DNA from: Haladaptatus sp. DJG-WS-42
GTDB taxonomy: Archaea; Halobacteriota; Halobacteria; Halobacteriales; Halococcaceae
DNA: 64,000 nucleotides
NCBI RefSeq assembly: GCF_037198285.1
Contig: NZ_CP147243.1
Location: 682,001 to 746,000, forward strand
Reading direction: 5' to 3'
The notes under the pieces were generated by a model. It saw nothing but the letters and a program-made list of their open reading frames with translations. It ran no database searches and was not told the origin of the DNA. Shown here in pieces: positions 20,223-24,968 of the stretch. Every line of letters starts with the position of its first letter. Positions within the stretch are counted from its first letter, which is position 1. Made by a program: the position numbers and the translations under genes.

Positions 20223-20798
20223 ATGCTAATTACCGTCTCCGGACCTGCCGGAAGCGGCAAGAGTACCACCGCAAAGGCGCTCGCCGAGTCACTCGGCTAC
20301 GAGCACATCAGCGGTGGCGACCTCTTTCGCTCTCTCGCAGCAGAACGTGGACTGACGCCGCTCGAACTCAACAAGCAGGCAGAAGAAGACGAGCAAATCG
20401 ACCGCGACTTAGACCGCAGGCTGCGCGACATCGCCCGCGAGAACGACGACGTGGTGCTCGAATCGCGCCTCGCTGGCTGGCTCGCAGGCGAGTACGCAGA
20501 CCTCCGCCTTTGGCTCGACGCGCCACTGCACGTCAGAGCCGCACGGATTGCAGACCGCGAGGGCAAACCCGTAGAGCAGGCGCGAAAGGAAACCCGCGCG
20601 CGCTCAAGCAGTGAGGCCCAGCGGTATCAAGCGTACTACGGCATCGACATCACCAACCTCTCTATCTACGACCTGAACGTCAACACGGCGCGCTGGAGCC
20701 CGGAAAGCGCGCTCGCCATCGTCCGAACCGCGGCCGAAGAGTACACCGCAGCGGACGACGAAGGGACGGTCGAGATAACCATCGACTACCAGTTCTAA
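20223..20798 (+). CDS. cmk: Cytidylate kinase (archaeal type)
   Basis: 191 residues; phosphorylates CMP/dCMP. The P-loop is [20 protein letters not shown] at residues 3-22. [17 protein letters not shown] follows, and the LID arginines are in [21 protein letters not shown] element (CTTTTTA, 20194-20200) lies 26 bases before the ATG at 20223, supporting this start over a codon pair earlier (20217) and implying a leaderless mRNA. A short hairpin (CCCTC GCTCG GAGGG, 20203-20217) falls between TATA and start. The stop shares one base with the truB start. Confidence 0.95.
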
Positions 20799-21682
20799 TG
20801 CTCGAACGCGGCCCACCCGAAGATCGACGCCCCACAGACCGTCTGCAGTTCGGGGTCATCAACCTCGACAAACAGCCCGGCCCCTCGGCCCATCAGGTGA
20901 CCGGCTGGGTACGCGACTTGGCCGGGGTCGACCAGGCCGCCCACTCGGGAACGCTCGACCCGAAAGTCACGGGCTGTCTGCCGATTTTGCTCGGCGACGC
21001 CACGCGCATGGCCCAGGTGTTCTTAGAAGGCCACAAGGAGTACGTCGCGGTGCTCGAACTCCACGGCCGCGCGCCCGCTGACCTGGAAGCAACAGTGAAG
21101 GAGTTCGTCGGCCCGATTTACCAGAAACCGCCGCGTAAGAGCGCCGTAGTTCGCCGCCTGCGCGTGCGAGAGATTTACGAAATCGACGTGCTCGAAGTCA
21201 CCGAGCGCCAAGCCCTGCTCCGGATTCGCTGTGAGAGCGGCACCTACATCCGGAAGCTGTGTCACGACATCGGCCTCGCGCTCGGAACTGGCGGGCACAT
21301 GGGGCACCTCCGACGGACGGCCACGACGCCGTTTGACGATTCGACCATGGTGACGCTCCACGACTTCGCAGACGCGCTTGCCTTCGCCGAAGACGGCGAC
21401 GAAAGCTGGCTCGATGAAGTGGTTCAGCCCGCAGAACGCGCGCTCACCCACCTGCCGAAGGTTACGATTGCGCCGAACGCGGCCGAACAGGTCGCAACCG
21501 GCGCGCAGGTGTACGCCCCCGGCGTGATTTCAGTCGATGGCGTCGAAGACGGTGACGAGAAGGACCGCCCGCTCGTGGCGTGTTACACGCCGGATGGGGC
21601 CGTCGTCTGTCTCGGCAGACTGGCTGGCGCACCGTCTCGGGAGACGGGCTGTGTGGTCTCTTTAGAGCGCGTGCTCGTCTGA
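20798..21682 (+). CDS. truB: tRNA pseudouridine synthase TruB / Cbf5-type
   Basis: 294 residues. The catalytic domain has the conserved AAHSGTLDPKVTGCLPILLG (about residues 47-66) with the nucleophilic Asp. A PUA RNA-binding domain follows from about residue 215 (PKVTIAPNAAEQVATGAQVY). In archaea this enzyme makes Psi55 in tRNA and, with L7Ae, Nop10 and Gar1, is the H/ACA RNP catalytic subunit. It overlaps cmk by one base (TAATG) and lies 65 bases before tRNA-Pro. The name cbf5 is equally used. Confidence 0.95.
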   Translation: MLERGPPEDRRPTDRLQFGVINLDKQPGPSAHQVTGWVRDLAGVDQAAHSGTLDPKVTGCLPILLGDATRMAQVFLEGHKEYVAVLELHGRAPADLEATVKEFVGPIYQKPPRKSAVVRRLRVREIYEIDVLEVTERQALLRIRCESGTYIRKLCHDIGLALGTGGHMGHLRRTATTPFDDSTMVTLHDFADALAFAEDGDESWLDEVVQPAERALTHLPKVTIAPNAAEQVATGAQVYAPGVISVDGVEDGDEKDRPLVACYTPDGAVVCLGRLAGAPSRETGCVVSLERVLV

Positions 21683-21715
21683 GGAAACCCGTAGGCGAGA
21701 CGCCGAAGCGAAGGG

Positions 21716-21723
21716 CTTAATGT
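21716..21723 (+). promoter_or_regulatory. TATA element of the tRNA-Pro gene
   Basis: CTTAATGT is centred about 29 bases before the first tRNA nucleotide, within a locally A/T-richer patch after truB. Position and composition fit an archaeal TATA box. The call rests on spacing alone. Confidence 0.45.
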
Positions 21724-21747
21724 TCACACTCTCATCCCCTGATATGC

Positions 21748-21820
21748 GGGACCGTGGGGTAGCCTGGTATCCTCTGCGGATGGGGTCCGTAGGACCTGAG
21801 TTCGAATCTCAGCGGTCCCA
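21748..21820 (+). tRNA. tRNA-Pro, anticodon GGG
   Basis: 73 nt, intron-free. Acceptor stem GGGACCG (21748-21754) pairs with CGGTCCC (21813-21819), discriminator A at 21820. The anticodon arm is TGCGG-ATGGGGT-CCGTA with GGG at positions 34-36, reading CCC/CCU proline codons. The T arm is CTGAG-TTCGAAT-CTCAG. The D arm contains GGTAGCCTGGTA. CCA is not encoded. Its last bases are also the left edge of a long inverted repeat that runs downstream, and 15 nt of its T arm recur at 21952-21966. Confidence 0.97.
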
Positions 21821-21895
21821 CATTTCTGACGCGAATAAGTTCAACGAGCACCGCGTAGCGGTGTGAGTTACACGATGAGCGGATAGAATGTGGAA
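21815..21895. repeat. Long inverted repeat, copy 1, abutting the tRNA 3' end
   Basis: Outer arms CCACATTTCT (21818-21827) and AGAATGTGG (21885-21893) pair with one bulged T. Inside is a hairpin CACCGC-GTA-GCGGTG (21849-21863). The left arm includes the last three tRNA bases. It aligns with copy 2 at 22023-22100 (shared GTCCCAC, GACG(T/C)GAATA, CAACGAGC, GCGTAGCGG-like core, TGGAA), and both outer and inner stems differ by compensating changes. Confidence 0.75.
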
Positions 21896-21926
21896 AGAGC
21901 TGGGATTCGAGCAGGAAGTGGGAGGT

Positions 21927-22193
21927 GAGCGAAGCGAACGGGAACGACCGTGTTCGAATCTCAGCGTCTTGTACGAGCGACAGCGAGTACAAGAGAAGGA
22001 GTGAACGCAGTGAGCGACTGGCGTCCCACCTTTTGACGTGAATATAGACAACGAGCGCCGCATAGCGGCGCGAGTAACTCATGAACGTCAAAAGGTGGAA
22101 TGAGCCTTGGCGTCTTGCGCGAGCGAAGCGAGCGCAAGGCTCGTTGCGACCGCAGGGAGCAACGGTGGTTCACGCGAGTGAAACGAGCGTGAA
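21927..22193. repeat. Six copies of a GA-NN-GNA-N'N'-GA hairpin core
   Basis: Cores at 21927-21937 (GAGCGAAGCGA), 21975-21986 (GAGCGACAGCGA), 22003-22013 (GAACGCAGTGA), 22121-22131 (GAGCGAAGCGA), 22148-22158 (GACCGCAGGGA) and 22176-22186 (GAGTGAAACGA). Four sit on unrelated perfect stems: CTTGTAC/GTACAAG, CTTGCGC/GCGCAAG, CGTTGC/GCAACG and TTCACGC/GCGTGAA. The two inner pairs covary (GC/GC, AC/GT, CC/GG, GT/AC), while GA opposite GA and a GNA-type loop are kept. This implies a conserved fold with tandem sheared G-A pairs. Confidence 0.75.
22023..22100. repeat. Long inverted repeat, copy 2
   Basis: Outer arms CCACCTTTTGACGT (22026-22039) and ACGTCAAAAGGTGG (22085-22098) are a perfect 14-bp inverted repeat. 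The 45-nt interior contains GCGCCGC-ATA-GCGGCGC (22055-22071). It is homologous to copy 1 at 21815-21895, with arms mutated in step. It is preceded by a tRNA-Pro 3'-end fragment that is interrupted by two of the small hairpins. Confidence 0.75.
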
Positions 22194-22313
22194 TGAAGGC
22201 CCACATCCCTCCCCGCGTCCACCTTGCACATGCAAGCTCCAACCCGCCGCTGTACAGGACTTTTCACCCAAACGGCCCAAGCACATACAAGTGGTCGCGT
22301 ACAATGGAGTGAT

Positions 22314-22535
22314 ATGGGGTTGGGGAAACTACTGAACTCGCCGGGAGCAAAGCGGATAAGCACGCTGTCGATGATTGCAGAGGCAGCGTTTGCGTTCCGA
22401 CGCGGAGAACCGAAGATTGGAGCCATGCTCATCGGAGCGGCGCTGCTCTCGATGCGCTGGAGTGTCGTCGGGTTGGCCAGTGAGGGACTGATTCGACTGT
22501 ACCGTCGTAAACGACCACTCTACGCACACCAATGA
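22314..22535 (+). CDS. Small basic protein with hydrophobic helices, unknown
   Basis: 73 residues. A short basic start (GLGKLLNSPGAKRISTL) is followed by two hydrophobic or amphipathic stretches (SMIAEAAFAFRRGEPKIGAM and IGAALLSMRWSVVGLASEGL) and a basic tail RLYRRKRPLYAHQ. Possibly membrane-associated; function unknown. The ATG at 22314 is preferred over upstream ATGs that lie in the repeat tract. The stop overlaps the next gene's start by four bases (ATGA 22532-22535), which supports both being real. Confidence 0.6.
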   Translation: MGLGKLLNSPGAKRISTLSMIAEAAFAFRRGEPKIGAMLIGAALLSMRWSVVGLASEGLIRLYRRKRPLYAHQ

Positions 22536-22714
22536 CAGACGAAAGCTCCGAAGACAAAGCCGAGGCAGCACAGGCACAGCGAGAAGCGGGAAACGAGCAC
22601 GAACAGGAGCGCAAACAGGAAAAGCTCGAACGCGAAGACGAGGCGCGCGAACAGGAAGCCGAGAAGGCGGAGAATCCGGACAATCACCGCGACGGCGAAC
22701 CGTTCCAGAGCTAA
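22532..22714 (+). CDS. Small, highly charged helical protein, unknown
   Basis: 60 residues, almost entirely E, K, R, A, Q and D (EQERKQEKLEREDEAREQEA), predicted as one long charged helix or coiled coil. No family recognised. Translational coupling to the 22314 gene (ATGA) is the main argument that it is genuine. Convergent with the CopD-like gene, 13 bases apart. Confidence 0.5.
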   Translation: MTDESSEDKAEAAQAQREAGNEHEQERKQEKLEREDEAREQEAEKAENPDNHRDGEPFQS

Positions 22715-22727
22715 ACTGGAGTCCTTT

Positions 22728-23168
22728 TTAGAGCAGCCCGGCGACGACGAGCAGGGCGAGGGCGACCGCGCCCGCGGTGAAAAATAGCGGGAGGTTCTGC
22801 TCGACAGCCACCTTCGCGGTTCTACTGCCGAGTTCGCGCCGCAGACGGCGGAGACCGACTTGGAGGAGGCCGGAGAGAATCACCCAGAGGACGACCATCG
22901 AGAGGACGAGGTGGCCACGTCCGGTCGAAGCGAGTGAGCCGAAGGTGTAGAAGTTTCCGGCGAGGTGGCCACCGGTGATGAGCAAGAAGAGAATCGAGGC
23001 GGTCGTCACGGTGGTAAAGCGCCCGGCGATCCATTGGAGCCCGTCGGTGCTCATCTGCCCGGCGCGGGCGGCGGGGAGGATGATACCAACGAAAAAGAGC
23101 GTGCCGCCGACCCAGATGCCAGCGAACAGCATGTGGAACACGGCCATTATCGTATCAATGAGTGCCAT
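22728..23168 (-). CDS. CopD-like four-helix membrane protein
   Basis: 146 residues, four membrane spans: IMAVFHMLFAGIWVGGTLFF, TTASILFLLITGGHLAG, LVLSMVVLWVILSGLLQVGL and LFFTAGAVALALLVVAGLL. The first span has the H...GxW...GG pattern and the second a conserved GGH of the CopD/YcnJ-type membrane domain, which in some proteins takes part in copper uptake or haem handling. The role here is inferred only from fold. Upstream (23196-23206 and 23213-23223) the near-repeat AATTGTTC(C/G)GG occurs twice, 17 bases apart, and may be a regulator site. Confidence 0.7.
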   Translation of the reverse strand: MALIDTIMAVFHMLFAGIWVGGTLFFVGIILPAARAGQMSTDGLQWIAGRFTTVTTASILFLLITGGHLAGNFYTFGSLASTGRGHLVLSMVVLWVILSGLLQVGLRRLRRELGSRTAKVAVEQNLPLFFTAGAVALALLVVAGLL

Positions 23169-23237
23169 GTTCCGAGTAAGGCACCGGGGTGTCCAAATTG
23201 TTCCGGTTGCTGAATTGTTCGGGTCGATGCCGGATGT

Positions 23238-24968
23238 TCAGTTGTCGTGCTTTGCGGCGGGGTTGGTCACCGCGCCGATTGCAGCCGACCCGAACAGCTG
23301 GCCGTACTTGGCGAGCACGCCCGAGTCGTAGTTCGGTGCGGGTGCCTCCCACTCATCGAGGCGGGCAGCGAGTTCGTCGTCCGAGAGGTCGATGTCGAGG
23401 GTACGTTCCGGGATATCGACGGTGACGGTGTCGCCGTCTTCGAGCACGGCGATTGGCCCGCCGACAAACGCTTCGGGGGCGACGTGTCCAATCATCGGAC
23501 CGCGCGTCCCGCCGGAGAACCGGCCGTCGGTGATGAGCGCGACGTCGTCTTCGTGGCCCGCGCCGACGACGGCGGCGGTGACGCCGAGCATCTCGCGCAT
23601 GCCGGGGCCGCCCTGTGGGCCTTCGTTGCGGATGACGATGACGTCGCCAGACTCGATGTGGCCTTCTTGGACGTAGGCCATCGCGTCCTCTTCGTCTTCG
23701 AAGATACGAGCGGGGCCTTCGTGGTGGAACTTGTCGTCGCCGGTGACTTTGAGCACCGCGCCGTCGGGGGCGAGGTTGCCTTTGAGGATTTTGATGGCTC
23801 CCTCTGCTTGTTTTGGCTCCTCGACGGTGTAGAGGAAGTCGGCGTCGATGTCCTCGTCTGCGGGCAGGTCAAGCTGGTCGAGTTCCGCTGCGATGGTGCG
23901 CCCGGTCACAGTCAGCGCGTCGCCGTGGATGAGCCCGGCGTCGAGCAGGCGACGGATGACGATTGGGACGCCGCCGATTTCGTGGAGGTCGTTCATCACG
24001 CGCGCGCCGCCGGGTTGGAGGTCGGCGATTTTCGGCGTGCGCCGAGAGATTTCGTCGAAGTCGTCGATGTCGAGGTCGATGCCTGCCTCGCGGGCGAGCG
24101 CAAGCAGGTGGAGCACGCCGTTGGTCGAGCCGCCGATGGCAGTCTGGACGGCAATGGCGTTCTCGAAGGATTTCCGGGAGAGAATATCGGAGGGACGGCG
24201 TTCTTCGCGAATGACTTCGACGGCGAGTTCGCCGGCGCGACGGGCCACGTCGTAGCGTTCGTCGTGTTCTGCCGGGGCGCTTGCGCTGCCGAGCGGGGCC
24301 ATGCCGAGCGCCTCGCTGATGGAGGCCATGGTGTTCGCGGTGAACATCCCGCCACAGGAACCCGCACCCGGACAGGCGTGGCGCTCTAACTCGTCTAACT
24401 CTTCTTCGCTCATGTCGCCGGTGGCGTACGCGCCGACGCCCTCGAACACCTGGACGATGGTCACGTCGCGGCCGTCGTGGTGGCCGGGCATGATGGACCC
24501 GCCGTAGAGAAAGACGCTTGGGAGGTCGGTTCTGATGGATGCCATCATCATCCCCGGGAGGTTTTTGTCACAGCCTGCAACCGTGACGAGGCCGTCGAGA
24601 CGCTCCCCGAAGGCGACGAGTTCGACCGAGTCGGCGATGACTTCCCGGGAGATGAGCGAGGCTTTCATCCCCTCTGTGCCCATCGAAATTGCGTCAGAGA
24701 TGGTGATGGTGCCGAACTCGATCGGCATGCCGCCCGATTCGTCAACGCCCTCGATGGCAGAGGCTGCAACGTCATCTAAGTGGACGTTACACGGCGTGAT
24801 GTCGGCGGCGGGGTTTGCGACACCAATCATGGGCGAGGCGAGGTCTTCGTCGTCGAATCCCATCGCGCGGAACATGGCGCGGTGGGGCGCTCGCTCTGGC
24901 CCCTCGGTGACATCGCGGGAGGGAAGCCCCTCTGGTTTCTCAAGCTTCTGCTTGTGACCGTGGCTCAT
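23238..24968 (-). CDS. ilvD: Dihydroxy-acid dehydratase
   Basis: 576 residues, full length. It dehydrates 2,3-dihydroxy-isovalerate and its C6 homologue in valine, isoleucine and leucine synthesis. Fe-S and active-site motifs include [17 protein letters not shown] (near residue 130-147) and [19 protein letters not shown] (about 193-211), and the C-terminal [19 protein letters not shown]. The first residues ([20 protein letters not shown]) are a usual haloarchaeal N-terminus. It stands alone here, without other ilv genes. Divergent from the glycosyltransferase at 25076. Confidence 0.97.

Follow-up and report, generated by a model that had tools for sequence, protein, structure and literature searches.

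Palindromic hairpin units with arms copied from the neighbouring tRNA: a candidate family of mobile mini-elements at tRNA 3′ ends of Halobacteria

The window analysed here, a 64-kb stretch of the genome of Haladaptatus sp. DJG-WS-42, contains an array of hairpins that follows a tRNA-Pro(GGG) gene. The features of the array are listed below, with positions counted from the first nucleotide of the window.

21748..21821, + strand: tRNA-Pro(GGG) gene, the anchor of the array (ARAGORN)
21818..21893, + strand: leading hairpin H1, a long 'A' hairpin (direct repeat D1, DNA and RNA folds)
21899..21966, + strand: B unit (sequence; covariance-model match with E 0.003 at genome 703901-703965, which is window 21901-21965)
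21899-21910, + strand: inverted copy of the tRNA-Pro T-arm, in the B unit
21927-21937, + strand: GA core GAGCGAAGCGA, in the B unit
21952-21966: direct copy of the tRNA-Pro T-arm GTTCGAATCTCAGCG, in the B unit, 15/15 identical to 21800-21814
21967..21994, + strand: hairpin with a perfect 8-bp stem, core GAGCGACAGCGA
21996..22023, + strand: partial B core AAGGAGTGAACGCAGTGAGCGACTGGCG, including GAACGCAGTGA at 22003-22013 (covariance-model match with E 0.02)
22026..22098, + strand: long hairpin H2 with 14-bp perfect outer arms
22112..22140, + strand: GA hairpin, core GAGCGAAGCGA, 7-bp perfect stem
22142..22164, + strand: GA hairpin, core GACCGCAGGGA
22169..22193, + strand: GA hairpin, core GAGTGAAACGA, stem TTCACGC/GCGTGAA

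Both the T-arm and the acceptor 3′ strand of tRNA-Pro(GGG) are copied downstream of the gene, and the hairpin at 21967..21994 is inserted within the copied tRNA 3′ end. The outer stem of H1 starts within the 3′ end of tRNA-Pro and includes several GA/GA steps. H1 and H2 are homologous (direct repeat D1, 77% identity), and the differences between them are paired, CACCGC/GCGGTG in one corresponding to CGCCGC/GCGGCG in the other. The genome (G000) was compared with two congeners, G001 and G002. In G001, the homologue of H2 is located directly 3′ of tRNA-Pro, so the stretch from 21822 to approximately 22030 (~208 bp) represents extra DNA relative to this congener. In G002, the orthologue of the hairpin at 22112..22140 has a GGTA loop in place of GAA, and the inner CC/GG pairs of the hairpin at 22142..22164 appear also as AC/GT, with the stem TGTTGC/GCAACA. 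The leading hairpins of the long type share a GAGCACCGCGNAGCGTGTGCGAG-like sequence across genera (window 21848-21867 and 22055-22074; loci L105, L111 and L060), which, judging by the sequence, is possibly a recognition site.

The preliminary description of the window had reported six cores of the GA-NN-GNA-N′N′-GA type, four of them on perfect stems of 6-7 bp. A sequence check found each of the six cores in its place. The four perfect stems also exist, but their lengths are 8 bp (21967-21994), 7 bp (22114-22138), 6 bp (22142-22164) and 7 bp (22169-22193), while neither the core at 21927 nor that at 22003 is on a perfect stem; both are placed within larger, partly decayed units. The motif is above chance: four perfect-stem GA-NN-loop-N′N′-GA hairpins were observed in the window against a mean of 0.015 per shuffle and a maximum of 1 in 200 dinucleotide-preserving shuffles. 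The rest of the 64-kb window contains no further perfect-stem GA hairpin of this type. The bare pattern GANNGNANNGA is common (2114 sites in the genome vs 933 for the reversed control), and therefore only the form paired with stems is informative. In 64.5 kb of tRNA 3′ flanks of the genome and its two congeners, the 2×2 mismatch steps within hairpins were GA/GA in 32 cases, TC/TC in six and any other combination in two at most; the respective counts in 40.6 kb from other haloarchaea were 25, 13 and no more than one. The TC/TC step is the GA/GA motif read from the opposite strand. Since the other 2×2 combinations are almost absent from tRNA-flank hairpins, the GA/GA motif is highly specific. 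The genome-wide counts given here rest on pattern and model searches, on tRNA flanks and on a 400-kb sample.

A comparison of 32 distinct units of the commonest length demonstrated that GA/GA is kept in 28 of them and that the inner NN and N′N′ are complementary in 29, with AC/GT in 15 units, GC/GC in 10 and other combinations as well. The inner pairs, whose covariation was seen earlier in the window, are of several types across these units too. The supposed constancy of GA facing GA agrees with most units, but one exception among the 32 has Watson-Crick pairs instead. The loop, which had been thought never to change, does vary: a GACA tetraloop closes the core at 21975, and in the family only 79/153 distinct triloop hairpins, about half, have GNA, which makes this loop a preference and not a rule. 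In an ungapped alignment of 30 sequences, ten of the 18 pairs show compensatory changes on both sides, with 48 double-changed cells vs 15.2 ± 3.7 in shuffled alignments, and the signal collapses in slid controls. Among hairpins with a single mismatch, the GA strand has more G.T than A.C whichever its orientation (18:5 and 4:1), which indicates that this strand is the folded one. Selection acts on a folded single strand, and its footprint, with tandem G-A pairs, which the preliminary description had recognised in one array, is supported class-wide by the compensatory changes. The GA steps are not read as kink-turns, since the loops are symmetrical and lack the three-base bulge. The arm spacing has peaks at 37, 47 and 58; helical phasing was rejected, and the peaks were attributed to added modules of GA plus a pair instead of turns of B-DNA.

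The preliminary description, right about the cores, had missed that they belong to units with copies of the 3′ end of their own tRNA, and that the tie to tRNA genes is class-wide. The order of parts in a unit is a leading hairpin, an inverted T-arm copy, a GA hairpin core and a direct copy of the T-arm and acceptor 3′ strand. In a typical unit, the tRNA 3′ end and a leading hairpin with GA/GA steps are followed by GGATTTGAA-n-CAGG-GA-GC-GA-NN-loop-N′N′-GA-GC-GA-CCGnG-GTTCAAATCC and the acceptor 3′ strand, the part from CAGG to CCG (CAGG-GA-GC-GA-NN-loop-N′N′-GA-GC-GA-CCG) being the conserved core. The copied T-arm and acceptor strand are those of the unit's own neighbouring tRNA, and the inverted arm copies the 3′ half of the T-arm of this host tRNA. 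The units span 50-210 bp and contain no integrase gene. Other inserts lie within the copied T-loop and have the GA core on the opposite strand.

Of the 44 tRNA genes listed for this genome, roughly two in three have one to four units on their 3′ side, as tRNA-Pro does, and copies of the gene's own 3′ end were found downstream of 29/44 (tRNA-model gene set). The arrays 3′ of tRNA-Gly(tcc) and tRNA-Arg(cct) have the same organisation as that of tRNA-Pro. The RF00005 search of the genome missed tRNA-Trp, which has an intron, and tRNA-Pro(cgg); units lie 3′ of both (genome 98294 and 944814). Acceptor 3′-strand 9-mers are copied downstream of 20/43 tRNA genes in G000, 11/42 in G001 and 22/44 in G002. 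The respective counts for the 5′ flanks are 0, 1 and 1, and permuted tRNAs give 0.16-0.35 on average (0.27 for this genome). TTCG-type left arms occur in nine of 14 units with TTCGAATC T-loops and in 0/84 with TTCAAATC, a count that is biased because the arm was picked as the best match. The extension of the inverted arm beyond the searched 8-mer provides an unbiased test of tailoring, and there the match to the unit's own T-stem averages 1.90 nt vs 0.90 ± 0.05 nt for shuffled tRNAs. Each of the two arms is matched to the tRNA beside it.

Some GA hairpins occur elsewhere. Hairpins of the GA-AC-GAA-GT-GA type lie 37-90 nt upstream of tRNA-Gly(tcc), Gly(ccc), Glu(ttc) and Gln(ttg) in G000, G001 and G002; the arms of some of them match the tRNA 5′ end, and at tRNA-Gln there are direct 5′-end copies as well. 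Such hairpins were not found in the tested 5′ flanks of other haloarchaea. Near genome position 2233626, apparently at the 3′ end of a protein-coding gene, GA hairpins form a chain without a tRNA link, which has the same GCTC-GTTGC...GCAAC-GGTG joint as window 22138-22168.

The covariance-model search across haloarchaea suggested by the preliminary description found the family class-wide, with 1-31 matches in 115/117 genomes and in all 46 genera. A tRNA gene lies directly upstream in 27 of the 29 top loci. Among the matches in G000, 27/29 follow a tRNA gene, one follows copies of the tRNA-Lys end displaced by an integrated element, and one is unlinked. Outside the class, one of 53 other genomes of the phylum has a weak and partial match, to the core only. 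An 18-nt signature of the unit is present in 21/195 genomes of the class, and its control matches none. Among 84,980 species genomes, 52 of the 56 listed haloarchaeal matches to this signature have a same-strand tRNA gene 28-280 nt to their 5′ side, compared with 0/25 chance matches outside haloarchaea. The named hosts include Haloferax, Halobellus, Halogeometricum, Halomarina, Halorarius, Halonotius and Natronococcus. Pattern scans of viral contigs in IMG/VR gave only matches without T-arm copies or a tRNA, and a viral origin of the units was rejected for the lack of T-arm context.

The number of tRNA-end copies varies between congeners at the same tRNA. Downstream of tRNA-Ser(gga), G000 has a 203-nt unit that ends in a tRNA-end copy and is bracketed by a 19-nt duplication TCCCAGTCCTGGCGTTTTC; G001 and G002 have exact empty sites, where the flank directly abuts the tRNA. 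Comparable whole-unit differences were found at tRNA-Cys, Lys(ttt), Gly(gcc) and Pro(tgg). Whole units are thus present or absent between congeners, with precise junctions. In another genome (G067), tRNA-Lys(ttt) is followed by four identical 111-bp tandem units (G067:C1:2656896-2657284). Unequal recombination between direct tRNA-end copies could explain many of the gains and losses without any active mobility system. Integrated elements are also present at two loci of G000. A gap of ~3.9 kb (genome 111650-115740) separates tRNA-Lys(ctt) from its array, whose end is adjoined by a tyrosine integrase (Pfam Phage_int_SAM_1 and Phage_integrase). The tRNA-Phe end copies and units lie ~9.9 kb from tRNA-Phe (genome 1779157-1781157), with a second integrase gene near the displaced array (genome 1780807-1781415). 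Since the integrase elements sit between these tRNAs and their arrays, the arrays predate the insertions.

The preliminary description left a choice between structured ssDNA and RNA. A possible alternative to DNA, rather unlikely although of some weight, is that the units are transcribed as tRNA 3′ trailers, the folded RNA affecting how the tRNA folds, how stable it is or how its 3′ end is processed; the tRNA's own T-arm may then have a competitor in the antisense T-arm. The GA strand does lie on the tRNA sense strand in all detected B units, which speaks for this reading, but the tRNA fixes B-unit orientation, so that strand alone cannot separate RNA from DNA here. The pairs show compensatory changes and tolerate G.U, and with RNA parameters the consensus structure of the B unit has a z of -5.4 and an ensemble frequency of 72%, whereas DNA parameters fold B units moderately; the better reproduction of the consensus fold by RNA parameters counts against the DNA reading. 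On the other hand, the presence of units varies among congeners at the same tRNA, some tRNAs have none, and the Rfam search of window 20500-23500 gave no match. Cores opposite to the tRNA strand also exist (6/38 in the genome and two congeners, 13/38 in other haloarchaea). The loops point the same way: structured RNAs favour GNRA tetraloops, while those of the sense hairpins are GNYA in 14 cases and GNRA in none, and the preferred triloop, GNA, is a stable loop of the DNA type. Because of the loop types and the cores in both orientations, ssDNA is favoured over RNA, and we infer that the active form is folded single-stranded DNA. The DNA mini-hairpins d(GCGAAGC) and d(ACGAAGT), with solved structures (PDB 1KR8 and 1L0R, as listed in PMC5430850), are exactly the inner hairpin of the core in its two most frequent forms, GC/GC and AC/GT arms closed by GAA; they are synthetic model oligonucleotides, whereas the core described here belongs to a natural class-wide repeat.

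Other origins of the units were also considered. It is improbable that they are scars of integrase-dependent plasmids or viruses that used the tRNA 3′ end as an attachment site and were lost by deletion. Integration classically leaves direct copies of the tRNA 3′ end, and real insertions do part the tRNA-Lys(ctt) and tRNA-Phe arrays from their genes, but they sit between the tRNA and a pre-existing array, and random scars would produce neither a conserved, compensated hairpin architecture in 46 genera nor an inverted T-arm copy. Mobilisation of REP- or IS200/IS605-type elements by a Y1 (HUH) transposase, the partner named in the preliminary description, appears very improbable. The hairpins have unpaired steps on one strand, and such transposons are abundant in haloarchaea (PMC3119063). 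The transposase does not, however, co-occur with the units: G001, where units are known from tRNA-end copies, and G045, G061 and G103, with 23, 21 and 21 covariance-model matches, have no Y1 transposase, the sole copy in G000 is interrupted, and G048 has ten copies and no unit. The genomes at hand therefore do not support a requirement for a Y1 transposase. By eye, the feet of the stems showed no shared tetranucleotide of the kind that would serve such elements as a guide. Replication-templated palindromes could arise without a dedicated enzyme: a GA mini-hairpin, ultra-stable and located at a 3′ end, would snap back, prime DNA synthesis and copy adjacent sequence into inverted arms, with the arrays varying by recombination. 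Such an origin is quite improbable; it would account for constant cores on perfect stems whose local sequences are unrelated, for arms matching the local tRNA and for the identical tandem units of G067, but it leaves unexplained why genome-shared modules are placed at tRNA 3′ ends and not genome-wide.

The reading preferred here, to which we give about an even chance, is that the units are a class-wide family of short non-coding palindromic mobile mini-elements of tRNA 3′ ends, served in ssDNA form by a recombinase acting in trans. The active form would be a folded ssDNA hairpin intermediate, and the recombinase would insert or remove units at the T-loop and 3′ end; the tRNA would stay intact because insertion restores its 3′ end. 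The most likely actor would be a tyrosine recombinase at the T-arm palindrome, or else the replication machinery priming on the hairpin core. Copying across the hairpin in its folded state might create the inverted arm or maintain its match (synthesis or correction), which would give perfect stems of local sequence around a constant core, and arrays would grow by repeated insertion and recombination. Tyrosine recombinases occur in all 21 genomes tested, which makes their co-occurrence with the units uninformative. Archaeal XerA can bind stem-looped att DNA (PMC8371274), so a chromosomal tyrosine recombinase is a reasonable candidate and possibly the enzyme of the units. Given their wide occurrence in the class, reading the units as purely selfish requires either high transfer or a benefit. 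Only tentatively can it be suggested that they are a new kind of mobile DNA, ssDNA hairpins whose recombination arms are rewritten for each host tRNA, so that one core colonises almost every tRNA locus, in integron-like tandem arrays for which tRNA 3′ ends are a universal class-wide anchor. Integron attC sites are folded single-strand palindromes forming tandem arrays at one anchor site; the units differ from them in having no cassette genes and a tRNA gene as the anchor.

Several described repeats resemble the units. Like REP/BIME sequences with RAYT transposases and like IS200/IS605, they are short palindromes whose unpaired bases are strand-asymmetric and which are probably recognised in the form of ssDNA; the arms of the units, however, derive from the host tRNA, and there is no Y1 dependence in the tested genomes. 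SMR-A of Haloquadratum walsbyi (PMC3119063) is ~110 bp long, non-coding, has inverted repeats and inserts in palindromes, and no mobilising enzyme has been assigned to it; the units share its size range, non-coding nature, inverted repeats, haloarchaeal host, palindrome insertion and lack of an assigned enzyme. SMRs, however, target IS605/PATE ends, possess fixed shared inverted termini of their own and produce no target duplication, whereas the units lie at tRNA genes, their arms follow the local tRNA, and the insert at tRNA-Ser(gga) is bracketed by a duplication. The integration scars and att sites of archaeal tyrosine integrases targeting tRNAs are reviewed in PMC8371274. As in such integrative elements, the tRNA 3′ end is directly duplicated from the T-loop outwards, with a copy at both ends of the insert; the units differ in their lack of an internal integrase gene, their small size, the conserved hairpin core, the inverted T-arm copy and the tandem arrays at many tRNAs of one genome. 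In Methanopyrus kandleri, about half of the tRNA genes are followed, at ~10 bp, by a palindrome (CGTTA-N9-TAACG; PMC5217627). It is likewise a palindrome 3′ of many archaeal tRNA genes, but a short single motif without tRNA-end copies or arrays. Neither SMRs nor this palindrome, the nearest described repeats, have tRNA-derived arms. No description of the units was found in the full text of the open literature, subscription papers being outside that search, and the family appears to be undescribed in the literature covered.

Virtually all haloarchaeal genomes have members of the family, which lie next to genes that are the most conserved in the cell. Its units are natural DNA hairpins that contain tandem G-A pairs and are demonstrably under selection, and they make a tractable case for the study of palindromes with arms rewritten to match the target. 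Named Haloferax species carry them, and therefore genetics in laboratory Haloferax may be possible. The units also offer an explanation for the unstable 3′ flanks of tRNA genes in haloarchaea, and bear on the origin of tRNA genes as integration hot spots.
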